A stretch of 28,474 bases of DNA from a virus, in the IMG/VR virus record IMGVR_UViG_3300017743_000083, positions 1 through 28,474 of that record. One strand, given 5' to 3'. The position numbers were made by a program, and so were the translations under genes. The notes under the pieces are model-generated. The model did not search any database and had not been told where the DNA came from. It saw only the letters and a program-made list of their open reading frames with translations. Positions 1,390 to 25,519 of the stretch are shown here, piece after piece. Each line of letters opens with the position of its first letter. Position 1 is the stretch's first letter.

Positions 1390-1893
1390 TTAGATACCTA
1401 AAGCCGTACAAAGCGAATTCATACCTATTTTAAGGTTGTTTAGCTGTTTGGGATGGTGATGAGGACTATTGATTAGTGCAAGTGGCATAATGTCGTAAAT
1501 ACAGATTTTATCGACCGCCACTTGGATAACGAGACCACAATCAAGTAAAGCATTCTTAGCGTGATCGTATCTATTGCGAACTCGGATCTCAGTTTCCTCA
1601 TCAATTAAGCCAAGACCTCTTGTGCTGCCGATTAAGTCAGCCGTGCTTGGGTTAACTGAACCAAAGATTTTGCGTCTGAGATTGCAGTATTGTTGACCAG
1701 CTTTCAACTGATACTCATTGATCAGACCACGAGCAAAAAGTACCCCAATTGCAGATTCCGCTAAGCTAGGATCACCAGGGCCAACTAACAATGCTCTCTT
1801 CATTTGCAATTCTGGTGTACCTACATCTCTAGCTGCAATAGGTTTCTTTTTGAGTTTCTTGTTTTTCTTTTTTCTCATAATTGCCTTTCCCAT
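1390..1893 (-). CDS. Basic hypothetical protein, possible regulator (162-167 aa)
   Basis: The protein opens with a strongly basic tail (RKKKNKKLKKK), followed by a TPELQMKRAL stretch, an 'IGVLFARGLINEYQLKAGQQYC' helical region and a C-terminal 'GMNSLCTALG'. This layout (TPE...; L..G.I...Q..AG; final G...L....G) resembles small alphaproteobacterial and phage proteins of the DUF6456 kind. I make that comparison from memory and with low certainty. The first ATG (1893) has no ribosome binding site, whereas the second ATG at 1878 is preceded by GGGAAAGG, so the true protein is probably 162 residues. It sits directly downstream of the repeat region 1940-2130. It could therefore be the protein that binds those repeats, or be controlled through them (inference). 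Confidence 0.7.
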   Translation of the reverse strand: MGKAIMRKKKNKKLKKKPIAARDVGTPELQMKRALLVGPGDPSLAESAIGVLFARGLINEYQLKAGQQYCNLRRKIFGSVNPSTADLIGSTRGLGLIDEETEIRVRNRYDHAKNALLDCGLVIQVAVDKICIYDIMPLALINSPHHHPKQLNNLKIGMNSLCTALGI

Positions 1894-1899
1894 GTTATC

Positions 1900-1934
1900 A
1901 GAGAGGCGCTAAAATTTTTATTTTAGCACTCTCT
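1900..1934. other. Long imperfect hairpin upstream of the 1390-1893 gene
   Basis: AGAGAG (1900-1905) pairs with CTCTCT (1929-1934), and GCTAAAAT (1908-1915) pairs with ATTTTAGC (1920-1927) around a TTTT loop. The two arms are separated only by a 2:1 internal loop, giving 14 base pairs in total. No U-tract follows on either strand, so it is not a standard intrinsic terminator. It lies between the repeat cluster and the start of the - strand gene and could be a leader hairpin or part of an origin. Confidence 0.6.
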
Positions 1935-1936
1935 TA

Positions 1937-1965
1937 TTTATAAGAGGAACATCTTACCATCTTAA
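1937..1965 (-). promoter_or_regulatory. Weak promoter candidate for the 1390-1893 gene
   Basis: On the - strand there is a -10-like TATAAA (complement of 1937-1942) 17 bases downstream of a weak -35-like TTAAGA (complement of 1960-1965). The -35 lies inside one of the CATCTTAA repeats, so a protein bound to the repeats would block or recruit polymerase here. The -35 is poor and the predicted start would fall within the hairpin at 1900-1934, so this is only a candidate. Confidence 0.25.
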
Positions 1966-2127
1966 ATTCGTTATATATTTCAACGACTTAAAGATGTTCA
2001 CGCCTAAACTTTCAATGATCATCTTAACGCTCCGAATTCCTTAGTAAATTCAACGAGTTAAGACCATTTAAGATGTTCATGACCATCTTAAATTTGCCAA
2101 CTTTTAAGATGTTCAGATCATCTTGAA
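1947..2127. repeat. Cluster of eight inverted AAGATG/CATCTT sites; candidate origin or operators
   Basis: The non-coding gap 1894-2144 holds eight copies of one hexamer. CATCTT occurs at 1950-1955, 1958-1963, 2020-2025, 2084-2089 and 2119-2124. AAGATG occurs at 1991-1996, 2070-2075 and 2106-2111. The 10-mer AAGATGTTCA occurs exactly three times (1991, 2070, 2106). Two pairs form near-palindromes: TTTAAGATG (2067-2075) with CATCTTAAA (2084-2092), and 2103-2111 with 2119-2127. In addition, 1965-1991 and 2035-2061 form a direct repeat, 21 of 27 bases identical and both containing TTCAACGA. An AT-rich stretch lies at about 1971-1980. Repeats like these next to a primase-helicase gene suggest iterons of a replication origin, or a set of operators; the sequence alone does not decide between them. 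Confidence 0.75.
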
Positions 2128-2144: not shown

Positions 2145-4376
2145 CTATTCAAAATCATATTCACTCACCATCCATTTTACATTGCCTTTCGCGTCCAGCT
2201 CTTCTGCTCCAACTGGCTGCACTTCACCCGTGCCACCATTAACAAAATGGGTTGGTCGAATGGTCATATTGGTCTTGATACCTTTGGTATCATTGTCCCA
2301 AACAGGCATATCTTTGATACATAAAAACTTACCGCCTTTGATAATTTTCTCACCAACTTGCTCCCCGTCAAATAACATAATCCACCCTTGGGTCAGTAAT
2401 GTTGACAGATTTCGCTTGATAGTAGAGGCTCCACCCAGACGATATTTGTCTGAAAATTTCAACGCAAATTGATTTTTATTGTAGTATTTACCCTTACTTG
2501 CCTCTCGAAATAGCAGCCCTAGGCACTTATTGACTTGATTAAATCGATCCATACTCATGTCATCCGTGATATTTACGCCAGAATCTCGATCAAATGCGTC
2601 CCCACGATCACACATATGTCCCTCATGATAGAAAACTGTCATTGGTTTTGGCTCCATAACTGCTCGTGTTTGAAAAAATAGTCTACGATCTTGCGTATCT
2701 TCGCTTGTTTTGGTGATGAATAGCCCCACATCATAAGCCCCTTGGATTGCTGAAGCCCCTCGAATAGCTAGGAATGGGTTTTCCATCATCTGATTTCTGT
2801 TAACTTTGTTCGAGTGATGAATAAGTATGATAGCAGCTTTGGGATTAATCTGATCTCGTAAGACCCAAATGCGATCTCGAATAAACTTCATCAACTCCAC
2901 GTTAGAGTTTTCATCATCGCCCGCGAATATATTAGATAGTGGATCAAAGATAATAACTTGCGGTAAATCATTGCCACAACTTCGATCGACCCAATCTTTA
3001 ACATCCTTAGAGCCTTCATCATCCAATACTTTAGTAAATCGATAAGTGAATTTAACATTGCGTTTTAATAATGCTTTCTCGGCCGGGTTTACTTTCACGG
3101 CTCTTAATCTTGCCGAGAGCTGGGCTTTTGACATCTCTGCTTGAACGACTACGACTTGCTGCGGTATTGGTACATCAAAACGATTGAGTAATTTATTTCC
3201 AGTGCCAATACAATATGCCATTTCTTGCATGAGTAATGATTTTTGCGACTTCGGTGGCCCAGCGATAACCATAAACTCACCCTCACGCAACAATCCTTCA
3301 ATGATTTCTGGTGGTAGTGGGGTATCGTCATCCACAATATCCGCCCAATCATCACCTTCAAGTGCCACTTGCTCTTTTTTTATTTTTGGCGCCCCATGTT
3401 TGTCGTAATGAATTTGAAAAATACGATCAAAATCTTTTTTAACTCGATCTAATTCCCATGGTGGATTAACTTTAGTTTGATTATAACCAACAACATCGTT
3501 CCAAGCCTCTTGCAATGTCCAATGACCTTCAAAGTGTCTTGTTAAACTCCACCCAATCGCTCGACCCATAGCTTCAAATCTAGTTTCACCTGCGTCTGCT
3601 CCTTCGTACACTTGCTCTTTGTACATGTCTTCCATTGGTACTTTGTTGTCACCTAAAGTTTTTTCGTTAACTTGTATCCCTGGCATGATTGCCATGTTAT
3701 TAACGCTGTCGATTAATTCTTCCAGCTCATATTCAATCGCTGAGTGATTAGCTATGCGTACTTGATTAGCAACATTATTTTTTTGATGTATGCTTCCAGG
3801 GAGGCGAATAGGTTGGTGGGCCGATCCAAAACTAGGATCCGCTGCAATCTTTTGAGCTGCTAATTTTTGAGCCGAGGTGATACGAGTGATGTCAGTTCCC
3901 ATGGCAGGTTCTGTTAGCTTCCAATACAAATGTCGCTTGTAAACATTTTCAGCAGTCTTACCGCCAGAATATATTTCTAAACTTGGTTGACCGAGTTGGG
4001 CAATGATATAATTTTTTGACGCTTCAATATCACCGCTATCGATATCAACCACAAAACATGGGTAGTTAATAATGTCACTAGCTTTTGCTTGATCTCTTGC
4101 AGCTACCGTTCCAGGGATAACATACACCCCCATTTTAAAATTACGTCCACGCTCAACTAAGGGTTTGAGGTGTTGGTGCATGTCATCTAAATTACTAGTT
4201 GGGATCCAATGTAATTGTTGATAGTGGCTTGTGCCGTCTACGCCCTTCTCCATAAACATACGAATAGGAATAAAGCCGTCACAATAACCATACAAAGTTT
4301 GTAGATACAACTTGATAGCGTCCGTATCTATGCGTGTTGGTTGACTGTAATCCGTGCGAAAATTATTCATTACCAT
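2145..4376 (-). CDS. Fused primase-helicase, RepB-primase plus RepA-like ATPase (743 aa)
   Basis: The N-terminal part resembles archaeo-eukaryotic-type primases of the RepB_primase group: a hydrophobic strand ending in the acidic metal motif VVDIDSGD (D111, D113, D116), then YSGGKT with HLYWKL, and RLPGSIHQK (191-199). Residues about 260-325 look like a small primase C-terminal linker domain (ETRFEAMGRAIG...PPWELDRV). Residues about 355-560 are a RecA-fold hexameric helicase of the RepA/AAA_25 type: Walker A GPPKSQKS (373-380), Walker B VIIFD (474-478), HH at 520-521 and an IRGASAIQGA loop. The C-terminus resembles a winged helix. The expected role is unwinding and priming at the phage origin in the host cytoplasm. 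It is the last gene of the leftward replication operon and borders the repeat cluster. The first ATG (4376) and the third codon ATG (4370) are both possible starts. Confidence 0.88.
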   Translation of the reverse strand: MVMNNFRTDYSQPTRIDTDAIKLYLQTLYGYCDGFIPIRMFMEKGVDGTSHYQQLHWIPTSNLDDMHQHLKPLVERGRNFKMGVYVIPGTVAARDQAKASDIINYPCFVVDIDSGDIEASKNYIIAQLGQPSLEIYSGGKTAENVYKRHLYWKLTEPAMGTDITRITSAQKLAAQKIAADPSFGSAHQPIRLPGSIHQKNNVANQVRIANHSAIEYELEELIDSVNNMAIMPGIQVNEKTLGDNKVPMEDMYKEQVYEGADAGETRFEAMGRAIGWSLTRHFEGHWTLQEAWNDVVGYNQTKVNPPWELDRVKKDFDRIFQIHYDKHGAPKIKKEQVALEGDDWADIVDDDTPLPPEIIEGLLREGEFMVIAGPPKSQKSLLMQEMAYCIGTGNKLLNRFDVPIPQQVVVVQAEMSKAQLSARLRAVKVNPAEKALLKRNVKFTYRFTKVLDDEGSKDVKDWVDRSCGNDLPQVIIFDPLSNIFAGDDENSNVELMKFIRDRIWVLRDQINPKAAIILIHHSNKVNRNQMMENPFLAIRGASAIQGAYDVGLFITKTSEDTQDRRLFFQTRAVMEPKPMTVFYHEGHMCDRGDAFDRDSGVNITDDMSMDRFNQVNKCLGLLFREASKGKYYNKNQFALKFSDKYRLGGASTIKRNLSTLLTQGWIMLFDGEQVGEKIIKGGKFLCIKDMPVWDNDTKGIKTNMTIRPTHFVNGGTGEVQPVGAEELDAKGNVKWMVSEYDFE

Positions 4377-12168: not shown

Positions 12169-12385
12169 AAAAGAGATTGCTACATATTTAGGATTAAGTT
12201 ATCCCAATTTTTTGGCCAAAGAACACCGTTTACAGGCTGTTGGCTTCCCTAAATTAGAGCTGGTTGTTAACCGTTACGACATAAAAAAAGTCGATGCTTG
12301 GCTAGACAATGACACAATTCAGCGGGATAGTGGCTTAAAAAAACATTATGAAAGTAAACTATCCCTACTTAAAAATAATCACTAG
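12146..12385 (+). CDS. AlpA/excisionase-like winged-HTH protein (79 aa)
   Basis: The protein opens KNKKEIATYLGLSYPNFL (helix-turn-helix) and continues with a wing-like beta hairpin (LELVVNRYDIKKVDAWLD). This is the arrangement of MerR-related AlpA and Xis proteins, which bind DNA near attachment sites and either direct excision or activate integrase transcription. At 79 residues it is normal for the family. It overlaps the repressor gene at its start and the integrase gene by 38 bases at its end. A ribosome binding site is not obvious, so translation may depend on coupling. An excisionase role is inferred from fold and position. Confidence 0.7.
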   Translation: MTKRLKNKKEIATYLGLSYPNFLAKEHRLQAVGFPKLELVVNRYDIKKVDAWLDNDTIQRDSGLKKHYESKLSLLKNNH

Positions 12386-13388
12386 ACGATCTCGTTCTAA
12401 AAAATCTAAAAAAATAATTAAAAAATACTATTACTATTTTCGTAATAAAAAATTACATAAAATAAATGTATCACCAGACCATCCACAATTTCATAAAATG
12501 TATACCGCAATTGATAGCAGCTTCGATGGTGCTACAACTCATGGTACTATTGAGTGGGCTTGTGATTGGTATCTAAAATCAAAACATCATAAGTCTCTTA
12601 GTGATTTTTCACAACGAGATGATAAAAAATTTTGTAAGGCTTTAAAGGAAGTGATAGGTGATTATAAATTAAATTTAATTACCGCTATAGATGTTAGAGA
12701 TTTTAAAGATGACTATGCTGAAGTTAAATCTAACGATGCAGCTAATAAGATTTTAAGTTTTATGCGTAAACTTTTTAATCAAGCTGAACTAAGAGAGTTG
12801 CAACCAATTAATCCGTTTGCGAAATACGGCAAGTTAGCAACACTACCTAGGGATCAAAGGTGGGAAGATGATGAAATAGCTTTAGTGCATAAACATAAGG
12901 ATGACTTGCATCCAAATAACTATTTAGTTTTTTTAATGGGATTGTATACGCTCCAAAGAATTGGAGACATTTTAGACCTAGATCGAGATCAATATGATGG
13001 TAAGAAAATATCTTTACAACAAGCAAAGACCTTGAAGAAATCAAGGAAATTGGTGGGTTTTCCAGTACATAAAGATTTAAAAATTGTACTTGATAAAAGT
13101 TTACAAGGACACAATCATCATAAACTGTTACAACAAAATTCGTACTGGAGTTTTAGAAAAGATTTTGATAACTTCAGACGCAAACATAATTTGTCGCAAA
13201 AAAGATTTCATGATTTACGCAGAACAGGAATGGTTAAAATGGCTGAGTTGGGAGTAAATGATATTATGATCTCGGCTGTATCTGGTCATAGTCTTGAGTC
13301 TACTAAAAGAATACTTGAAACTTACTTGCCGAGAAATTATAAAATGGCAAAGAAAGCAATGGATACTTGGGAAAGTGGAAACCCCTAA
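12348..13388 (+). CDS. int: Tyrosine recombinase integrase (346 aa)
   Basis: The catalytic residues of tyrosine recombinases are present in order: R204 (TLQRIGDIL), a beta-hairpin lysine near 230-234, H288 and R291 (RFHDLRRTG), H314 (SGHS) and the nucleophile Y326 (LETYL). The N-terminal ~60 residues are very basic and aromatic, resembling an arm-type DNA-binding domain, and residues about 65-150 form the SAM-like core-binding domain. It would insert and, with the AlpA-like protein, excise the phage genome at attP, which lies immediately downstream. Its last codons overlap the first arm-type repeat. There is no clear ribosome binding site at the ATG at 12348. Confidence 0.93.
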   Translation: MKVNYPYLKIITRRSRSKKSKKIIKKYYYYFRNKKLHKINVSPDHPQFHKMYTAIDSSFDGATTHGTIEWACDWYLKSKHHKSLSDFSQRDDKKFCKALKEVIGDYKLNLITAIDVRDFKDDYAEVKSNDAANKILSFMRKLFNQAELRELQPINPFAKYGKLATLPRDQRWEDDEIALVHKHKDDLHPNNYLVFLMGLYTLQRIGDILDLDRDQYDGKKISLQQAKTLKKSRKLVGFPVHKDLKIVLDKSLQGHNHHKLLQQNSYWSFRKDFDNFRRKHNLSQKRFHDLRRTGMVKMAELGVNDIMISAVSGHSLESTKRILETYLPRNYKMAKKAMDTWESGNP

Positions 13389-13434: not shown

Positions 13435-13480
13435 GGCTCGATAGCTCAGTTGGTAGAGCAAAGGACTGAAAATCCTCTGG
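13435..13480 (+). other. attP core: 5' half of a tRNA-Phe(GAA) gene
   Basis: The stretch matches the 5' half of a bacterial tRNA-Phe: acceptor strand GGCTCGA (13435-13441), D arm GCTC...GAGC with the usual AGTTGGTA loop, and an anticodon loop CTGAAAA with GAA at 13468-13470 flanked by AGGA/TCCT. No variable loop, T arm (no GGTTCGA) or 3' acceptor strand follows, so it is not a working tRNA gene. It lies directly after the integrase gene and between repeated arm sites, so it is the segment shared with the host attB. Crossover would fall in the D-arm to anticodon part of a host tRNA-Phe gene. Confidence 0.8.
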
Positions 13481-13511
13481 TTTATGCCCTAAGTCATTGA
13501 TTTTATTGGTT

Positions 13512-13577
13512 GGGGTTTCCAGTTAGAAGTAAAAAAAACTCTATATAAATCAAGAAAAATAAAATTAATTGGAAACC
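13512..13577. repeat. Right-hand (P') arm-type sites
   Basis: GGGGTTTCCA at 13512-13521 is the reverse complement of the core TGGAAACCCC of the left arm sites. TTGGAAACC at 13569-13577 is a shorter match in the forward direction. Together with the tandem pair on the left they flank the tRNA-like core on both sides, as in lambda-type attP sites. Confidence 0.55.
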
Positions 13578-13661: not shown

Positions 13662-13982
13662 TTATCTGAGTAGTGGGTTACTTTGCTCTTCTTTAATCTC
13701 ATTTAATTTGGCTTCCATGTAGGCTATGGCAGCTTCGTTGATTTTAATAAGTGCTTTCATTGCTTGTAAATCTGTTTGTAAGACTTCAAGTTCTTCGCTT
13801 AAACCATCTTTTGATTCTGCAATGCGATCATGAATTTCTGTAAGATCAATTGATTGAACTTTCTTTTTTTCAATGACATCTAGTCTTTGGTTAAATGTAC
13901 CCCAGGTATAAAAGCCACCTCCGATTGCTGAAACCAATGCTATAAGCATTCCCACTGTTTGTAGTTTAGATATTATTTGCAT
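13662..13982 (-). CDS. Membrane-anchored coiled-coil protein, lysis-accessory candidate (106 aa)
   Basis: The protein has one N-terminal transmembrane segment (about residues 8-30, GMLIALVSAIGGGFYTW). A long coiled coil follows (about 35-98) with a basic KKK after the membrane segment and a charged end. This one-membrane, long-helix plan is shared by i-spanin-type (Rz) lysis proteins and by several unknown phage membrane proteins. TGGAG lies 9 bases before the ATG. It overlaps the secreted 618-residue gene by 17 bases. A spanin-like role is only suggested by topology and position; no embedded or following lipoprotein (o-spanin) is evident. Confidence 0.65.
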   Translation of the reverse strand: MQIISKLQTVGMLIALVSAIGGGFYTWGTFNQRLDVIEKKKVQSIDLTEIHDRIAESKDGLSEELEVLQTDLQAMKALIKINEAAIAYMEAKLNEIKEEQSNPLLR

Positions 13983-15822
13983 TTTTTAACTCCATTAATT
14001 TTTTATATGCGTCTTCTGTTTTAATTTTAAGTTTTTCTTTTTTTATTTCATGAGCGGTTACAGGATCATCAACTGACAAAGAAACTTGTTGCTGATATAT
14101 CTCATAATCATAACCGACTAAATCTATTTGCTTAAAGAAATCCATGTTACCGTCAGGGAAGTCTAATTGGTTCTCAAAGAAACTTTCATTAATTGCATTG
14201 TAACTAGCAAGACTTACTTCTTGTTGAATAATATCTCGGCTTAAAATTTCACTGACTACTGACAATGTTACTTCAACTTTTTGTCGTACATTAGTTATCT
14301 TATCGGCAATGGCTTTTTCAATTTGCACAACTTTAGTATCTTCTAGCTCAACTACTTCTTCTTCGACTGATTCGTCAGCGACTTCTGGCTGTTCGACTGG
14401 CTCTTCAACGTCTGCTGTCTCTTGCGGTTGCTCTGCGATAGGCTCCTCTGTAATGGGTGATTCATTCTCAATGGCATTTTCTTCAACTACCTCTTCGTTG
14501 ATAACTTCTTCTTGGTAGGTTTCTTGGATTGGCGTTTCTTCTTGATAGGTTTCTTCATCGGTGCTTGTGGAAAGAATAGGTTCTTCAACCATTGCAATCT
14601 CTTCATTAGAATTTGTTTCAACATAATTATCCTCACTATAGTTGGTTGGTTCATCGATTGGTCCTGTTGAGACATCATCTTGATTATTAAGTGTAGGCTC
14701 ATAGGTTTCAATAAATTCTTCTTGATTAAACTCTTCTTCTTGATATGGATCGGTGTCATTATTTAAAGTTATTAAAGACAACTCATTTTCATTGTCTAGT
14801 GACACACTAGTTTCAAACTCTATTTCAAGTTCAAGATTTTCTTCAACTGTAATATTGTTTGGTTCAAAGTTAATTTCTTCAGCATCGAAGTACTCAACGT
14901 CAAAATAATCGTCAGATATAAGCACAGTTGCTTCATCATAATTAAAATTATCTTCTTCATATGTGTAAAGATCTTCTTCATACTCATATTCAAAATAAGT
15001 AATGTCAGTATTAGGAATATTAAAAATTTCTGTTTCTTCGTTGGGGTCATAAATATCTATCCATTCCTCTACATCTATGCTTTCAATCAATTCTCCCGCT
15101 GCTACAATTTCATCGTTACCGGGACATGCGTTAGGTATCTTTTCATAACAGTAAACTGTATCTACAGAGACCGTGTTTGTGTAAGTATTGTAACTTACAT
15201 TTAGAGAAGGCGATTTCAAATCAACGCCAGCATGACCTCCGTTGTAATTAATTTTAGTATCATCTAAAATATCAAAATCAAACCGAGCGGTTAGAGTTCC
15301 ATGTTGAATATCTGCACTAGGGTTTACAATCAAAGTATTTTGATAAGGATAAAACTGATAGTTATGATTAGTAGTATCTTCTAGAAGTAAAATTTGTGTT
15401 GTACTATCACCATTAGATGTTGTTGCAATTTGTGTCATGGTAAAAGTTGATGGCACTGAGTTCCACCATCGAGCTTGAACACCAAACACACTAGTAAAAC
15501 CACCTTGAAGTTCTTGTAAAGTAAAGTAATCTTGTGAGCTAAGTGTAGTTTGTGCATACGTTCCATCTTTACCTGTCAGATAAAGAGACTCATTACTTAA
15601 ATCACTTGAGTCTGGAAACATAGTTCCAACCCAAGATCCATCAATCCAATTTTCACTAATAAGATTAGAAGTAGTTACAGATGTACCATGCGCGTGATAA
15701 GTAGTTGTCGTGGTGTCCCCTATAGATGGCCAGTCTTCTTGTATCTCAACTAAATCGGCTAAACTATTGGTTACCCAACTTAACAACACCACCAGAGTGG
15801 CTAATGACGTTAGTAGTTTCAT
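13966..15822 (-). CDS. Secreted acidic low-complexity protein (618 aa)
   Basis: A signal peptide (MKLLTSLATLVVLLSWVTNSLA, cleavage probably after residue 22) leads a Thr/Ser/Asn-rich beta-sheet domain (about 25-235) that ends with a close cysteine pair (C225 and C233, VDTVYCYEKIPNACPG). Residues about 245-495 are extremely acidic low complexity rich in Glu, Thr, Pro and Tyr, with recurring ETYQEE. The last 120 residues are helical and not low-complexity. The start at 15822 is backed by AAGAGGA; a longer frame from 15855 would put a basic extension before the signal peptide. It overlaps the 239-residue exported protein by 59 bases. The function is unknown; export to the periplasm or outer surface is likely. 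It could act in late lysis or alter the surface of the lysogen. Confidence 0.75.
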   Translation of the reverse strand: MKLLTSLATLVVLLSWVTNSLADLVEIQEDWPSIGDTTTTTYHAHGTSVTTSNLISENWIDGSWVGTMFPDSSDLSNESLYLTGKDGTYAQTTLSSQDYFTLQELQGGFTSVFGVQARWWNSVPSTFTMTQIATTSNGDSTTQILLLEDTTNHNYQFYPYQNTLIVNPSADIQHGTLTARFDFDILDDTKINYNGGHAGVDLKSPSLNVSYNTYTNTVSVDTVYCYEKIPNACPGNDEIVAAGELIESIDVEEWIDIYDPNEETEIFNIPNTDITYFEYEYEEDLYTYEEDNFNYDEATVLISDDYFDVEYFDAEEINFEPNNITVEENLELEIEFETSVSLDNENELSLITLNNDTDPYQEEEFNQEEFIETYEPTLNNQDDVSTGPIDEPTNYSEDNYVETNSNEEIAMVEEPILSTSTDEETYQEETPIQETYQEEVINEEVVEENAIENESPITEEPIAEQPQETADVEEPVEQPEVADESVEEEVVELEDTKVVQIEKAIADKITNVRQKVEVTLSVVSEILSRDIIQQEVSLASYNAINESFFENQLDFPDGNMDFFKQIDLVGYDYEIYQQQVSLSVDDPVTAHEIKKEKLKIKTEDAYKKLMELKNANNI

Positions 15823-16483
15823 CTTTATTTTCCTCTTGCTCAATTTTTTTATCAACTGAATCTATGTAACGAAGGTCTTTAGTATAAGTCTCATAGTCAG
15901 GTCGTAACTTAGGATACTTTTGATAATGCTCTTCGGCCTGACTTCCAATCAAACCCATGTAAGGACAATGAGTTGAGGCATGAGCCATAGAAAGAAAAAT
16001 TCTTTCATCAGTACATAGCAACGCCAAACTTGCAACTTTCATACCCATTAAGTGTAAAGTTTTAGCAAGTAAAACTAACTCACACGTTAGATCTCTTTGA
16101 TGACTTGCAACTGAAACACCAAGACCAAATTTTTGAATACCACCAGACACTGATGATGTACAAACCATTTGATTCATGTTGCCGATTGCCGCTGCATTAG
16201 CACTAGGCACGACTCTTGTGTCGCCTGTAAAACTGTTATTAGTACTATTAGTGGTGTTAGTAGTAGTGGTGTTAGAAGATGAACCAGATTGATAATTAGT
16301 TGTACTATCTGTTTCTGTATGCATTCCGCCTGTTATGGCAGTATTTGTTCCTGAACTATTTGTTTGTGTATTAGTTGTTGCTTCTGCACCAGTAACGTCT
16401 GCCATTGCTTGATCCATTAACCAACCAAAAACAAACAATACTAATGTGATAATAATTACCATTGTTAATATATTCTTTATCAT
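15764..16483 (-). CDS. Exported Thr/Asn/Ser-rich four-cysteine protein (239 aa)
   Basis: A hydrophobic N-terminal segment (about 4-24, then AMA at 26-28) acts as signal or anchor. It is followed by a Thr/Ser/Asn-rich linker (about 30-85) and a compact domain with C108, C134, C157 and C173 spaced for two disulphides. This domain contains SGGIQKFGLGVSVASHQRDL, LAKTLHLMGMKVASLALLC and HCPYMGLIGSQA. I recall similar proteins, with 'GTNTAITGG' and the four-cysteine domain, recurring in marine phage genomes without known function; this is recall, not a search. The start overlaps the previous stop as ATGA. The gene runs 59 bases into the next. It is probably envelope-located, with the 618-residue protein as a likely partner. 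Confidence 0.75.
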   Translation of the reverse strand: MIKNILTMVIIITLVLFVFGWLMDQAMADVTGAEATTNTQTNSSGTNTAITGGMHTETDSTTNYQSGSSSNTTTTNTTNSTNNSFTGDTRVVPSANAAAIGNMNQMVCTSSVSGGIQKFGLGVSVASHQRDLTCELVLLAKTLHLMGMKVASLALLCTDERIFLSMAHASTHCPYMGLIGSQAEEHYQKYPKLRPDYETYTKDLRYIDSVDKKIEQEENKDETTNVISHSGGVVKLGNQ

Positions 16484-18055: not shown

Positions 18056-21000
18056 TTACTTCATATCCTTTATATATTTTAAATATTCTGGTCGTTGAGA
18101 TTTTCTTAATTTCTTAACTGTGTTGATTGCCCTAGGATTTCTAAGGTTTCTAAACATTCTGCGGATGTAACCATTGTTAATAGGAATATCATCCTCTCGT
18201 GCTTCAGTTCGAATACGATTTAATTCTTCTCTAAACTTTTCAGGATCAGTTTTAGCATAACGTGTATATACATATGCCATGTCGGTATAAACTTTTTTGG
18301 TTTCACGATCTAAATTGTTATCATCAAACATTAATAGTTCATTTAAGTCAGACTCTAATGAGAACTTAGTAGGGCGACCACCAATCATATAGTTGAATAC
18401 ATCAAGTCTAGATACTTTATTACTAACTACTTGCCCTGATTTGTAACCACTAGTGTAAACAATATTAGATGGACTGGCTAAGTTCTTCATAACTGTTTCA
18501 GCATACAATTGTAACGTACTCATATCGGTTGTCGCTAATACTGCCAAGTCTTGACCGCCTGCTAACATCTCAATACCTTTTAGTGGTTTACCAATACCAC
18601 TTGTGATGTTAACTGTTTGATCACCAAAAGTAGCACCAGCTTCTTGTAGTTTACGAGCGTTAATTAAAGTAGATATAAACGGACCTTTAAATTGATCCAT
18701 TAAGTTATCACCGATACTCAAACGATCATTGTAAGGAATAAATCTATTACCTAAACCAACCCTAGATGATATATCTTGGCCAACTAAAGTAGGTAAACCT
18801 TTAACAAAAAGATCACCCATCATACCAGTGGCTTCACCGTTAGCATGAGCATCTAAATTAGTACGCATTAAAAATTTAACTGGTGAATATTCATCACCGA
18901 ATAAGGATCTGATTAACCAATCAAGTGCTTGTAAACCAGGTAAGCCTAATGCTCCCGCTAGTATATAAATGTGTAGTAATTGTTTTAACATTACCTTACG
19001 CATCTCTTTAATTCTAGCGACTGCTTCTTCGGCAGTCTCAATAGTGCCATCGTCTTTTTCTAAACGAGTTTTTGGATTAAATGGATTGAGTTCAGCATCT
19101 TTCCATATACCTAAAGTAAATGCAGTTTGTTTGAATAAGAAGTTTTTAAATTGAGTTCCAACTTTTAAACCTTTTATTCTTAAAATTTTTGATGTATCAG
19201 ATTTGTCATAGAAGAACTGTGTATCGTTCCACGCTTTTTGGCCATCAAATCTAGCTTGTTTTTCTGTCTTGCCGTTGTTGGTAGCTCTAGTATGTCCTGC
19301 CGTATAAGCCATCATACGGTTAAAGACTTCTGCTTTTTGAAATAAGAACATAGAGTACTTAGCAATAGTGCCACGATCTAAATTCATTTCAGTACCATCA
19401 GTAAATAGACCTTGGTCTACATCTACACCACCTTCATCAAATCTTTGATCCCACATAGTAGTAAACTCAGTGTCAGTACCAGTCATTTTACCACGAGTAT
19501 AACGTGAAAGAATTCCATACGATTGTACTATTTCGCTGTAACTATAAAGTGCTGAAGTATTAATAACAGTTTGCGATAAGTTAACAATCGGTGATAGTAA
19601 GTTCATAAACATACCTAATTTAGTATGTGCTGAGATACCTAAAATTGCTTGTATAGTAGGATCAAAAACTTTAGTTGATCCATCTTCGGATACTATACCT
19701 GCGTCTGAAGAGGCTTTTACTCTGCCGTAGACCATCATTCCTAACGGTACACCTATAATTAAACCAATAACAGGAGCGCCAAAAATACCTACGACACCTG
19801 CAGCTCCTAATCCTGTCATACCAGAATAAAGTGTTGCTCGATCTAAGCCTTTAACTTTACCTTTAGTTAAGGTGTCAATACTATTATCAACTGTATTAAA
19901 AAATGAATCAAATACACTATCAAATGTATTTTCGAAACCGCCTTCAACATTACTAATGTCATTGATAAAGTTTCTAAATTCGTCTTTCATTAAGTTATCA
20001 ACTGATGAATACTTTCCATCGTCTAATGCTTGTTGTATTTCATTAGCGTCATATTTCATTTCATCTAATATTAAGAAACGCATGACGTTTTGAATATGTG
20101 AACCTAATATCTTTTGAGTGTCAGTTGAGTAACCTTCAGCACCTAATCGTTCTTTTTCAAATGAAGCGGTAACTCTTCTATCACCCATTTTAACATTTAA
20201 GTCTCTATTAATTTGAGCTAATGATTGTCTACCTGTTCTAACATCTTCTAATTGATCCGCAGTTAAAGATACTGCTAACTTTTCAATTGTTTTATCATTA
20301 AGTATAGTTGCACTGACAGCACTGTCAGCCCAAGTTGTTCCTCTATTTACAACAACAATTTTATCGTCTTTATACTTAGGGTTAGCTTCAATAAAATTTT
20401 CCGCTGCTTGTCTTGCTTGAGCGTCTGTATCAAAATAACCTTGCTCACTAAATATGTTTTTAACTTTACCGTCCGCGCTAACAATTCTAACACTATGACT
20501 ACCAAACCATATATGAGGCAGATAACCATCATTAGTTTTAATATCAAACTCAGGTTTTATTCTAGAGTTCTCAATATCAATCATTACAATTTGACGATTT
20601 AATTCTAATTGATATGGGTTACTATTTTTGTAACCTCTCTTATAACCAATCTCTTTTTCAATTTCTCTAATACGATCGTTTAGTCTATTAATATTTTCTT
20701 CTCTAAGTTTAGCTTTCTCAGCGTTTCTTAATTTAGGAGTACGATAAACTCTTTTAAGTTCATTATATATTTCTTCACGTTCCTTTAAAGATTCAATAAT
20801 ATCAATCTCGGCTCTTTCTGCTTCAAAATCAGCTTTAGCTTTAGCTATAGCTATTTCTTGAGCTGCTTTCACTGCATCACTTTCCATGATTAATTTTTCT
20901 AATTGTTTGCCGTTTGGGTTATTAACTTCTGGAAAATCTTTTTTAGTAAACTTCATTGACCAACCGTCAGGAAGTGCTACTACATAACCTAATATATTTT

Positions 21001-24000
21001 TAGTCTTAGGATCTTTAATACGTTCAACAATTTCAACTTTACCTGCATCTTTAAACTTAGGTGTTTCAAGACTATCAAATGTTTTTTTTACGTCAGCTAA
21101 TAAGTCGTTTAATCTTTTAGTAGCTTTAGGTCTGATGTTGTCGTTGTGTTCGTTAATTAATGTACCAAGTTCATCAAGGGTGTTACGAGTTTCATTGTAA
21201 CCATCAATACCTTCTTTAGTTAACTTGATTGTTTTATCACCAATAACAATACCTTCTTGTAATTCTGCTAATGAGTACTTTTTACCTTGGCGATCACCTT
21301 CCACTATAACTGCGGATACATCTGCACGTTCAGCTTCAGGAACTTTACGCCAAACATCATTGTATCGCTTAAAGATACGACTCATTTTTGAGGTTACACT
21401 TTGTGTATTAAATTGAAATTTTTCTATAACTTTTCTAACTTGAGGATAGACATAAGTACCATCAGGATTACGCATACTCCAAAGTTTTAACGGGCTTTGT
21501 ACCCACTTTAAAAAATTTACTTTCCATTTCTTAGGTGCTTTCTTATCTGAAGTACCATCACCGTCACCGCTATCACTTTCAACACCAGCTTCATCAGGCA
21601 CAATTGGCTCTGCAAGTTCTGCAAGTTTTTCTTCTTCAGTCATCTCATCCACTATAACTTTAGCTTCTGCCTCAGTACGTTCAACGGACTTTTCAACTGC
21701 TTCAACAATTTCTGGGTCTTCTATAATTTTACTTATGGGTAAACCATCTTTTAACTCACCGTTAAAACCAATATTAGTGTCTATGGATCTGTCAATGACA
21801 CCTTCAAAGCCTAAAGGTTGATTTCTATCTTCAACAACCCCCAACTCATTCATGACAAATCGTTCATCTAAATACTTTTGAATTCTTTTATCTGTAATAT
21901 TAAACGGAGCTTTCTCATTTGGAACTCCATATCGGCTTGTTGCCTTTTGATCTTCAGCCGTATCAAAACGACCCCACGATGTAAAATTACTTCTTATACC
22001 AGGAGGTGGTTGTTTGTTAGGGTAATCGTGCGCCCACAATGGATTTTGTGATCTTGTCTCATACATTTTACTAATGCTGTCAACTGGAGTAATTGTCTTA
22101 AATAGGCGTTTCCAAAACTCTGCAACTTTTGCAAAAAATTTTTCTGATAAAGTTTTTGGTGGAATATTAGTTAATGCCCAACGTGAACTTTGTTCAGCAA
22201 ACCATTCTGCAAAACTCCCATGATATACTTGATCCTTATTTGGTATGTTATAGTCACGTTTTTTACTTGGTCTCTCAACACCACCGCTAACAACAGTTCC
22301 ACCATATTTAACTTCATAATTTTGAAAGTCAGTAATGTCTTTCATCAACGCATCATTATTAAAACTACCATCGCTGTTGCGATATATCTCAGCAGTATGT
22401 TGATTTCCAGCAAAAGCAGCTAACCTACTTAAAGGGTTACTTTTAGTAAACGTTAAGTTCTGATATGTTTTACCTATTTGTAAATATTTAAGATAATCAA
22501 GAAGAACTGCTCTTTTAGTTGCAGTATCAGAATTGTTAAACAATTCCCATTCCATAATATGACCAACTTCATGAGCCACTGTTGAAAGAATACTCATGTC
22601 GTCAACAGATCTATTTAAATCAGCTTCATTAAAAGTATCAAACATACGTTTAATTTGGTAACTTGTTGAGCTAGTGTCTAAATTAATAGTGTATGTTTTA
22701 TTTATTTCAAAATCGGGACCAAATTCATGTTGTATATGTCCTGCAAATTTTTTCTGTGCGCGTCCAACTATATAAACATTACCACGGGTTAAACCTTGTT
22801 CAGATAATTCATTCTTAAATTTTGCCCGTCTTTTATCACTGCTTGGATTTGCGTAAACACTATGTTTTTTTGCAACTTTTTCTGTCAAATGTCCATTACC
22901 ATCTCGGTCTTTATCGGTAGTAACAAATATATTAATGTTGCTCATATTTAATTTTGCTAACATCTGTTCCATATATTCTAATGCATAACTTGGAACTGTA
23001 TCTGTACCGACAACTTTGCCATCTAATGTGTCCCCAAATGGACCAAACTTAGGTGTCGATTTAGTTGGAACTGCTGGCCCTTTAGTTTTCTTCTTAACAA
23101 CTTTTTTTTCTTCTTGACCAAAAGTATTTGACCAAGAGCGTTTGTCATACTCTAACCTAGTGCCATCAGGTAAAAAGATATCTACAATTTCGTTACTGGC
23201 TTCATCAATTTGAGATTTTTGTTTAGCTCTTACCGCGGGCTTGTTTCGATCTGTGCCTTCTTCTACAAATTGTATCGGAATTGCATTAATACCTTCTTCA
23301 ATATAACTGTTTAAGTTATTAAGGTTATCTTGAGTATCATTTATTATATAACGGCTTCCAGTTTTACCGGGCATTTTAGTAACTATAATTTGTGGAATAT
23401 TTGCCCCACCAACATTTGATTGATTATCAAAATCTTGAAATGTAAATCTTGAATCAGAATTACTACCAGCTAATTGAAAAGCCCCTACACCAGATCGTAA
23501 TTGCGCTCTAGTTGGATCAATAAATTTAGATTTTAAATTAAATGATTTAGCTAAATTTTCTGCTTGAGCTTTAGTAATAAACCCTACTTTACCGATAAAC
23601 TTACCTTTAAGATCTTTTTTATCAATGGCTGCTCTAGTAGAATTTTGATCTGCTGAATTTTTATTAGCAGCTCTTGCACGTTGTACAGAAGGTCTGTTGT
23701 CTATCGTATAATAGCCATCATCAAGTATAGTTGTCGCTGTATCTGCTATATCTTTTGGATCTAGTTCTTCAACAGTTTCTTTTACCGCTTTAGTTTCAGC
23801 AGTTGGTTTATTATAGATGCCTCTTTTTTCAGCTTCTTTTTTAAGAGCAAAACCGTCACGCATTGCACTGTAATAAGTGTCTTGTCCTGCACCAAACTTA
23901 TCACTTGTTTTTTTACGGTCTTTAATTCTTGTTCTTCTATCTGCAAGAAGTGCTAATAATTGTTCATTAGATAAATCTTTAGGTTTGATTTTAGTTTCTT

Positions 24001-25519
24001 TGCCGTCAATACCACTTAATTCAAAATTTTCATCTAAAGGATTTTTAGTATCATATTCAAATCCTAAAATTTGAGGCTCACCATCTAATTCAAAATCAAC
24101 TTGACCTGTCTCTTGATCTCTTGAAATAACTCTTACTCTTTTTTTTCTACCTTGAAGATCATAGACATCTATATGTGAACCATCATCAATATCATCTTTA
24201 GTAGTCTTTGGTCGCCAGTCAGGACCATTGTCATCAAACGGAGTTAACTCAACTGTATCAAATCCAAACGGATCAAGTTCTTCATCTACGTCCATGTCGT
24301 AGTAATCGTCATCAGCTAATACAGTTTGAAAACCGCCAGTGGGTGTTGAGCCACCCATATTGTCAATGCCTTCAGCTATTTCTTTTTCTGCATCGATAGC
24401 AGCTTTGATTCTGCGTGTCTTTGCTTTAGCAAACGGATAAACAATTGCAGTTAAAGTACCGCCCGCAATACCACCTAAAATTCCTTCGTATTGATTTTCT
24501 GCCCAACCAATAGTTTTTTCTGGGTCTAAGAACATCTGCTCAATATAATCTTGTGCAATAGCTTGAGCGTATTCTTGGCCACCCTCAAGAAAGGCTCCAG
24601 ACACCGCGCCTGTAAACACATCACCAGTAACTTGGGCTAATCTATTGTTGCCCATCTTTTTAGCAACACCTTCAATAATTGGATTCTTACCAATAATTTT
24701 ACCAAGAATACTATATGACATAGCAGTCTTAGCTTTACCGCCCTTACTAAGTTTAGATAACTTACTTGCAACTAAACCTATTGGTGCTGCTTCTAATGTA
24801 CCTAAACCAAAGGAAGCTCCTACAGCTTTTGAAAATTCAATATCATATTCATCATAACCTAAACTTCTAGCACGTTCAGCCATATCACCTGCTGCCATGC
24901 CACCACCTAAAGCAGCCATCATACCTATACCTGCTAATGGCCCACCAACGGCAGTACCTGCTACACCTGCACCAATGAAACCACCGAGATTACCAAACAC
25001 ATAACCAAGGTCATCAACCCAATCATCGTCTGTAAAATCTACTTCACCAAACCATTCACGATTAGCATCACGGACAGCTTGTCCAGCTTTCCATAAAGTA
25101 CTGTCATTACCACTTGCAAATTCTTCAAAGAAATTTTTATAATTATCATCAGTTGCAGTTCCTGCCGCAACTGCTTCAGAAATACCTTGTAACGCTAGAC
25201 CACCAGTATCGATCACACCGCTCATAAGACTTTGACTAAATCTACTTATAGCTCCACGATCATCAAAAGAATTTTCAGTAACTTGTGGCACCAATAAATT
25301 ACGCATAGTTGGATCGCCAGAAACATATTGCGATACTTGAAATGCTTGAGCGTTAGGATTTAATTCTGAAAAATCCATTGACTGACCTTTTAATAAGGCA
25401 GGCTCATAATTAGCAAGTGGATTAGAGAGTAGATTAAGTTCAATATCTCTAGCGTCAGCATTCAGCCGTTGTTCTCTAGATGCAATTGGATTCTGCTCTT
25501 CTTCTAAGTTCTTAACCAT
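18056..25519 (-). CDS. Giant internal virion / DNA-ejection protein with metallopeptidase motif (2487 aa)
   Basis: This is the last of the ejection-type genes. Near the N-terminus are Gly/Ala-rich hydrophobic stretches (about 171-212 and 343-363) suited to membrane insertion. A zincin motif HEVGH lies at 983-987, after SILSTVA, with a possible third ligand at E1105 (AEWFAEQ). A long charged helical region, probably coiled coil, spans about 1540-1635. Hydrophobic stretches recur at about 1897-1932 and 2173-2210. The C-terminal third resembles domains of phage 'polyvalent' proteins that travel with the DNA, among which predicted metallopeptidases have been described. It probably leaves the capsid during infection and helps DNA cross the envelope; the peptidase could cut envelope or host proteins (inference). 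No lysozyme or transglycosylase motif is recognised. AAGGA precedes the ATG. Confidence 0.8.
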   Translation of the reverse strand: MVKNLEEEQNPIASREQRLNADARDIELNLLSNPLANYEPALLKGQSMDFSELNPNAQAFQVSQYVSGDPTMRNLLVPQVTENSFDDRGAISRFSQSLMSGVIDTGGLALQGISEAVAAGTATDDNYKNFFEEFASGNDSTLWKAGQAVRDANREWFGEVDFTDDDWVDDLGYVFGNLGGFIGAGVAGTAVGGPLAGIGMMAALGGGMAAGDMAERARSLGYDEYDIEFSKAVGASFGLGTLEAAPIGLVASKLSKLSKGGKAKTAMSYSILGKIIGKNPIIEGVAKKMGNNRLAQVTGDVFTGAVSGAFLEGGQEYAQAIAQDYIEQMFLDPEKTIGWAENQYEGILGGIAGGTLTAIVYPFAKAKTRRIKAAIDAEKEIAEGIDNMGGSTPTGGFQTVLADDDYYDMDVDEELDPFGFDTVELTPFDDNGPDWRPKTTKDDIDDGSHIDVYDLQGRKKRVRVISRDQETGQVDFELDGEPQILGFEYDTKNPLDENFELSGIDGKETKIKPKDLSNEQLLALLADRRTRIKDRKKTSDKFGAGQDTYYSAMRDGFALKKEAEKRGIYNKPTAETKAVKETVEELDPKDIADTATTILDDGYYTIDNRPSVQRARAANKNSADQNSTRAAIDKKDLKGKFIGKVGFITKAQAENLAKSFNLKSKFIDPTRAQLRSGVGAFQLAGSNSDSRFTFQDFDNQSNVGGANIPQIIVTKMPGKTGSRYIINDTQDNLNNLNSYIEEGINAIPIQFVEEGTDRNKPAVRAKQKSQIDEASNEIVDIFLPDGTRLEYDKRSWSNTFGQEEKKVVKKKTKGPAVPTKSTPKFGPFGDTLDGKVVGTDTVPSYALEYMEQMLAKLNMSNINIFVTTDKDRDGNGHLTEKVAKKHSVYANPSSDKRRAKFKNELSEQGLTRGNVYIVGRAQKKFAGHIQHEFGPDFEINKTYTINLDTSSTSYQIKRMFDTFNEADLNRSVDDMSILSTVAHEVGHIMEWELFNNSDTATKRAVLLDYLKYLQIGKTYQNLTFTKSNPLSRLAAFAGNQHTAEIYRNSDGSFNNDALMKDITDFQNYEVKYGGTVVSGGVERPSKKRDYNIPNKDQVYHGSFAEWFAEQSSRWALTNIPPKTLSEKFFAKVAEFWKRLFKTITPVDSISKMYETRSQNPLWAHDYPNKQPPPGIRSNFTSWGRFDTAEDQKATSRYGVPNEKAPFNITDKRIQKYLDERFVMNELGVVEDRNQPLGFEGVIDRSIDTNIGFNGELKDGLPISKIIEDPEIVEAVEKSVERTEAEAKVIVDEMTEEEKLAELAEPIVPDEAGVESDSGDGDGTSDKKAPKKWKVNFLKWVQSPLKLWSMRNPDGTYVYPQVRKVIEKFQFNTQSVTSKMSRIFKRYNDVWRKVPEAERADVSAVIVEGDRQGKKYSLAELQEGIVIGDKTIKLTKEGIDGYNETRNTLDELGTLINEHNDNIRPKATKRLNDLLADVKKTFDSLETPKFKDAGKVEIVERIKDPKTKNILGYVVALPDGWSMKFTKKDFPEVNNPNGKQLEKLIMESDAVKAAQEIAIAKAKADFEAERAEIDIIESLKEREEIYNELKRVYRTPKLRNAEKAKLREENINRLNDRIREIEKEIGYKRGYKNSNPYQLELNRQIVMIDIENSRIKPEFDIKTNDGYLPHIWFGSHSVRIVSADGKVKNIFSEQGYFDTDAQARQAAENFIEANPKYKDDKIVVVNRGTTWADSAVSATILNDKTIEKLAVSLTADQLEDVRTGRQSLAQINRDLNVKMGDRRVTASFEKERLGAEGYSTDTQKILGSHIQNVMRFLILDEMKYDANEIQQALDDGKYSSVDNLMKDEFRNFINDISNVEGGFENTFDSVFDSFFNTVDNSIDTLTKGKVKGLDRATLYSGMTGLGAAGVVGIFGAPVIGLIIGVPLGMMVYGRVKASSDAGIVSEDGSTKVFDPTIQAILGISAHTKLGMFMNLLSPIVNLSQTVINTSALYSYSEIVQSYGILSRYTRGKMTGTDTEFTTMWDQRFDEGGVDVDQGLFTDGTEMNLDRGTIAKYSMFLFQKAEVFNRMMAYTAGHTRATNNGKTEKQARFDGQKAWNDTQFFYDKSDTSKILRIKGLKVGTQFKNFLFKQTAFTLGIWKDAELNPFNPKTRLEKDDGTIETAEEAVARIKEMRKVMLKQLLHIYILAGALGLPGLQALDWLIRSLFGDEYSPVKFLMRTNLDAHANGEATGMMGDLFVKGLPTLVGQDISSRVGLGNRFIPYNDRLSIGDNLMDQFKGPFISTLINARKLQEAGATFGDQTVNITSGIGKPLKGIEMLAGGQDLAVLATTDMSTLQLYAETVMKNLASPSNIVYTSGYKSGQVVSNKVSRLDVFNYMIGGRPTKFSLESDLNELLMFDDNNLDRETKKVYTDMAYVYTRYAKTDPEKFREELNRIRTEAREDDIPINNGYIRRMFRNLRNPRAINTVKKLRKSQRPEYLKYIKDMK

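Follow-up and report, generated by a model that had tools for sequence, protein, structure and literature searches.

Inverted short sites past a phage primase-helicase gene form a candidate replication origin, probably read by the C-terminal domain of the enzyme

The DNA analyzed here (hereafter the window) comprises all 28,474 bases of an IMG/VR virus record. Its source is a tailed phage, temperate-like and carrying an integrase gene (12348-13388) and a tRNA (13435-13525). The tRNA match lies on the plus strand directly after the integrase gene, and is a likely attachment site. Two near-identical records, one of 34.7 kb and one of 50.9 kb, overlap at either end, which points to a circular or permuted genome of about 58 kb. 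The replication genes form a minus-strand operon (about 10956 to 2145) for a Sak4-like annealing protein, a DEAD-type helicase, a Cas4-type exonuclease and, as the last member, a primase-helicase. The minus strand also carries the reading frames of a predicted secreted protein of 629 residues (13966-15855), low in complexity and very rich in Glu and Thr, and of a protein of 2487 residues (18056-25519), very large and of structural or polyvalent type.

The primase-helicase gene (2145-4376, minus strand) encodes a protein of 743 residues, which matched PF13481 (1e-23) and the PHROG families of DNA primase and primase/helicase, the PHROG matches covering the ATPase part. The protein is laid out as an N-terminal primase-like region, a RecA-type ATPase of the AAA_25 family and a C-terminal domain, and we infer that the N-terminus is the primase. 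The C-terminal domain (residues about 609-743; 2148-2552, minus strand) gave no significant match to Pfam and PDB, the helix-turn-helix matches being below the threshold. The structure model of the full-length protein was poor (pLDDT 39) and usable for secondary structure alone; within this low-confidence model, three helices predicted for the C-terminal domain at residues 609-627, 634-641 and 650-662 fit the helix-turn-helix pattern, and the domain is probably a winged helix. The putative recognition helix is the last of the three (residues 650-662, within GGASTIKRNLSTLL; 2391-2429, minus strand).

Past the stop codon of the primase-helicase gene lies a gap of 251 bp (1894-2144), followed by the gene for a basic protein of 162 residues (1390-1878, minus strand), while the opposite flank of the primase-helicase gene measures only 35 bp. 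The sequence-only reading had pointed to this gap as a sizeable one holding eight copies of a hexamer, and recounting agreed in each respect. The hexamers AAGATG/CATCTT start at 1950, 1958, 1991, 2020, 2070, 2084, 2106 and 2119, within 175 bp, and belong to eight AAGATGNTC-type sites that together form an array at 1947-2124, to which no strand is assigned and which begins 20 bp past the stop codon. The sites are at 1947-1955 (minus), 1955-1963 (minus), 1991-1999 (plus), 2017-2025 (minus), 2070-2078 (plus), 2081-2089 (minus), 2106-2114 (plus) and 2116-2124 (minus). The orientation is thus mixed, and near-palindromic pairs are formed by the hexamers at 2070/2084 and 2106/2119, as had been claimed. 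All but one of the eight match AAGATGNTC, for which there is no further match in the 28.5 kb; the exception, at 1955-1963, is AAGATGGTA. The decamer AAGATGTTCA was found in three exact copies (1991, 2070 and 2106, all on the plus strand), nowhere else in the record, and in the 50.9-kb relative it was likewise confined to the array, and not scattered through the genome. Among 200 sequences simulated from the window under a first-order Markov model, counting 6-mers with at least three different letters, the density of eight copies per 175 bp was never attained, the maximum being six.

The second direct repeat that had been claimed, TTCAACGA, does exist as two copies 70 bp apart and is confined to the array; however, when the window was shuffled 100 times, two or more copies arose by chance in 34 cases, and the repeat was rejected as part of a conserved system after it was found not to be kept as such in three divergent relatives (L012, L013 and L014). 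DnaA boxes (TTWTNCACA) matched twice in the window and not within the array. The array does not follow the classical iteron pattern of direct repeats at near-constant spacing, its orientation being mixed and its spacing irregular. Neither a search of the gap with Rfam covariance models nor a nucleotide search of phage records with the array gave a match. The cumulative GC skew, suggested earlier as a check, does reach its maximum about 0.5 kb from the array, but is uninformative, the strand of the genes switching at that point; third-position skew was inconsistent. Separate from the array, a hairpin (1901-1933, minus strand) lies just upstream of the gene for the 162-residue protein. When the alignment was read by eye, both arms of this hairpin were changed between relatives with the pairing kept, apart from a single bulged base, and it could be a translational control element.

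The array was compared with those of four divergent relatives, L010, L012, L013 and L014, with primase-helicases 94%, 86%, 83% and 82% identical, respectively, to that of the window. The alignment of the arrays is free of gaps in all four, indicating that the site spacing is conserved where the flanking genes are kept, and the loss or scrambling of the array in relatives, which would have spoken against a functional array, was not observed. The array of L014 retains the motif of the window. In L012 and L013, by contrast, the sites switched in concert from AAGATGNTC to AAGATRGTA at unchanged positions and against the genome phylogeny: AAGATRGTA occupies eight of eight sites in both, and in L013 is found nowhere else in the 23-kb record. 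Between the window and L013, all 18 substitutions in the 8 x 9 site positions fall at positions 6, 7 and 9 of the site, with consistent directions, and uniformity of the sites as in L013 was reached in none of 20,000 random placements of substitutions. L012 and L013 are grouped together by 15 site columns vs two spacer columns. The idea that the array simply passed as a block from one lineage to the other was rejected in a test with about seven informative spacer columns, as the spacers do not group the two. Genes elsewhere in the operon mostly group the window with L010, and L013 with L014.

The concerted switch bears on the reading that the inverted sites are hairpins of a structured RNA in the transcript. 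Both strands fold better than shuffled sequences (z of -5.4 and -6.3), the 1901-1933 hairpin changed in both arms between relatives, and the A/G variation at site position 6 in L012 and L013 occurs in one orientation only, as G-U pairing permits; good folding, however, is expected wherever inverted sites are densely packed. Neither L013 nor L014 retains the inner arms of the large hairpins in the array, all eight sites were switched to one new sequence even though they belong to different hairpins, and the number, spacing and orientation of sites differ between motif classes (see below). An RNA structure is thus a very improbable explanation of the array.

A change parallel to that of the sites was found in the primase-helicase. 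Among the 14 columns of this protein that group L012 with L013, six fall within 20 residues, at 638-657 (p of about 0.0002 under a uniform distribution and about 0.0006 among variable columns), overlapping the putative recognition helix. These six group-specific substitutions convert GGASTIKRNLSTLL into GSAATIRN[HN]VNTLL, while at the third positions of codons 620-680 the split of L012 plus L013 from the others was seen only once. A binder of the array had also been sought in the 162-residue protein, a proposal that was not supported. The five group-specific changes of that protein are conservative and scattered, its distant homologues in L036 and L037 have neither a gap nor an array upstream, and loci with an unrelated downstream gene still have arrays.

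Arrays of this kind recur in most of the helicase loci examined. For distant homologues, about 31-34% identical, the 300 nt past the stop codon mostly contain a short site in 4-12 copies of mixed orientation. On a Shinella replicon, the helicase is 33.7% identical over 95% of its length and the gap repeats AAGTTGGGAA in both orientations; in Eleftheria terrae, the helicase is 30% identical over 51% and the gap repeats CAGTTGGCT, again in both orientations. A scan of viral contigs with the Shinella protein as the seed yielded at least 396 relatives, of which 80 loci, the nearest to the Shinella protein, were fetched and 73 distinct gaps were examined. With the window group included (78 loci), the commonest 6-mer of the gap was present in 7.5 copies on average vs 3.3 and 3.6 in control stretches. 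Among loci with at least five motif copies, the density of the locus's own motif per 100 nt was 4.1, 2.6 and 1.2 across the first 300 nt past the stop codon, and did not exceed about 0.1 in other stretches within 2 kb. In a few loci, any 6-mer reaches three to four copies at most. AT content is raised over the same first 300 nt in the family as a whole. The motifs fall into about 11 classes, a number depending on the clustering threshold, that differ in site number, spacing and orientation, and ATTCTG and AATCTG arrays differ by another concerted switch in which the positions of the sites are conserved.

In Wolbachia phage WO (L144:5884-6071), ten AAGWTGGCA-like sites with at most one mismatch are located within 190 bp past the ATPase gene, and this array is a candidate origin for a well-studied phage. 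A 40-kb phage contig of this family (L039, PAYK01000017.1) is included in a metagenome-assembled genome labelled Flavobacteriales, an assignment that may be a binning error; a prophage search of 298 genomes of the order of this single match recovered that contig alone. No description of this family of downstream arrays was found in the open-access literature.

The motif distance between loci was compared with the divergence of the neighboring proteins. The partial correlation was 0.63 for the C-terminal domain of the helicase, 0.28 for the downstream RuvC-like gene and 0.07 for the ATPase domain, the loci being related and not statistically independent, so that the permutation tests correct for kinship only partly. 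Among pairs with ATPase identity of at least 90% and RuvC identity of at least 85%, the C-terminal domains were 92.7% identical within the same motif class (81 pairs) vs 57% between different classes (80 pairs). Between L138 and L142, the identity drops from about 90% to about 58% at the beginning of the C-terminal domain, about 400 nt ahead of the stop codon, amounts to about 35-40% across the gap, and is again about 85% in RuvC. The pair L113/L100 behaves similarly, the identity falling about 400 nt before the stop codon, remaining low through the array and recovering in the downstream gene. These patterns indicate that the reading domain and its sites are apparently exchanged between phages as a matched set. 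Since the C-terminal domain adjoins the array, recombination linkage explains part of the covariation; the gene on the far side of the array correlates much less with the motif than does the adjacent domain. In the analysis of 71 loci, the strongest motif signal came from helix 2 and the C-terminal tail, not from the recognition helix alone, which adds little once the tail is given (partial correlation of 0.08).

The same data bear on two further readings of the array. As a multi-operator, the array would be bound by a regulator, perhaps the 162-residue protein, for control of the downstream gene. The array does sit upstream of the gene for this protein, for which no family match was found; its structure model gave very weak matches to sigma-factor-like folds (E of about 1), and its distant relatives are encoded after replication genes (L036 and L037) or before terminase genes (L038), as expected for a late regulator. 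The protein is possibly a regulator of late genes, and is not likely to read the array. The downstream gene varies, however, from that for the 162-residue protein here to a RuvC-like gene in 71 of 73 distant loci, the same RuvC-like gene stands behind many motif classes, phage WO has no such downstream gene nearby on that strand, and the motif follows the C-terminal domain more closely than the downstream gene. Together with the L036 and L037 homologues, which lack an upstream array, this makes the operator reading unlikely. In the other reading, the array is a packaging site (pac or cos) bound by the small subunit of terminase. Multiple short sites within about 180 bp are in keeping with such a site, and the pac site of phage P1 comparably contains repeated hexamers; the gene resembling that for the small subunit of terminase (assigned by eye) is, however, separated from it by about 6 kb in the 50.9-kb relative, and covariation of the motif with a helicase domain renders a packaging function extremely improbable.

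Altogether, the array is likely to be the replication origin of the phage, and the adjacent primase-helicase would recognize it through its C-terminal domain. The earlier suggestion of a binding array for an initiator or regulator is well supported by sequence comparison as far as an initiator at a candidate origin is concerned, with the primase-helicase taking the place of the 162-residue protein as the predicted binder. DNA binding, helicase loading and origin function are what we infer for this system: several primase-helicase subunits would bind the 9-bp sites, and the bound subunits would load the helicase ring at the AT-richer gap, where the DNA would be melted and primed. The site sequence and the reading domain would be inherited as a matched pair, exchangeable as a cassette. 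Since cassettes appear to be exchanged, origin specificity is suggested to be under diversifying selection. More tentatively, and with somewhat less than even confidence, the C-terminal domain and the array may constitute a cassette of origin specificity that can be swapped and is widespread among the phages and prophages of alphaproteobacteria and others, diversifying into many classes that would be mutually exclusive like plasmid incompatibility groups; co-resident phages would thus avoid firing or titrating each other's origins, and the roughly 11 pairs of domain and motif would represent a natural recognition code. A concrete origin and initiator are predicted for many phages and prophages, Wolbachia phage WO among them, and about eleven natural pairs of domain and site make the recognition specificity directly testable. 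For uncultured phages of this kind, a rule for finding the origin would be to look directly past the primase-helicase gene.

Matched specificity types are known for the O proteins of lambdoid phages and the iterons of their ori, resembling the predicted pairing of initiator and origin sites here, but the lambdoid iterons are direct repeats inside the O gene and O is not a helicase. The alpha protein of phage P4 combines primase, helicase and origin recognition in one polypeptide, as predicted for the primase-helicase of the window, the comparison being one of description. In a paper that compares it with pRN1, the primase of P4 alpha is given as of the Toprim type (PMC4234260), whereas no Toprim match was found in the window protein. 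In pRN1, the origin is located downstream of the gene for its own primase-helicase, ORF904 (PMC4234260), which resembles the system described here in the position of the origin and has the C-terminal winged helix that is tentatively predicted in the window; unlike the array, the origin of pRN1 lacks iterons and consists of a single long stem-loop, and ORF904 is an SF3 helicase (PMC4234260). For Bartonella, experiments placed a phage-derived origin of run-off replication close to or inside a phage helicase gene that has non-coding DNA next to it, and the helicase was likened to Twinkle (PMC2697382); the parallel, an origin near a phage helicase and non-coding DNA, is intriguing but one of description. 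The initiator helicases SaPI Rep and SCCmec Cch2 read, through their C-terminal domains, short repeats located directly downstream of their own genes (PMC7581432). The window likewise has a replicative helicase and a putative primase in the same protein (AAA_25, 1e-23; PHROG), with repeats directly downstream (20 bp past the stop codon, and in the family-wide profile), and a mobile-element helicase with a C-terminal domain reading short downstream repeats is predicted here as well. The window sites differ in being mixed in orientation and irregularly spaced, and the ATPase differs in being a RecA-type AAA_25 domain fused to a primase-like region: no SF3 or AAA+ helicase fold was found in the protein, only AAA_25 and weak DnaB_C matches, both of RecA type. 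Because its ATPase is of this type, the primase-helicase with its array stands outside the SF3/AAA+ families proper, while by analogy it would work like the group of SaPI Rep, Cch2 and P4 alpha.
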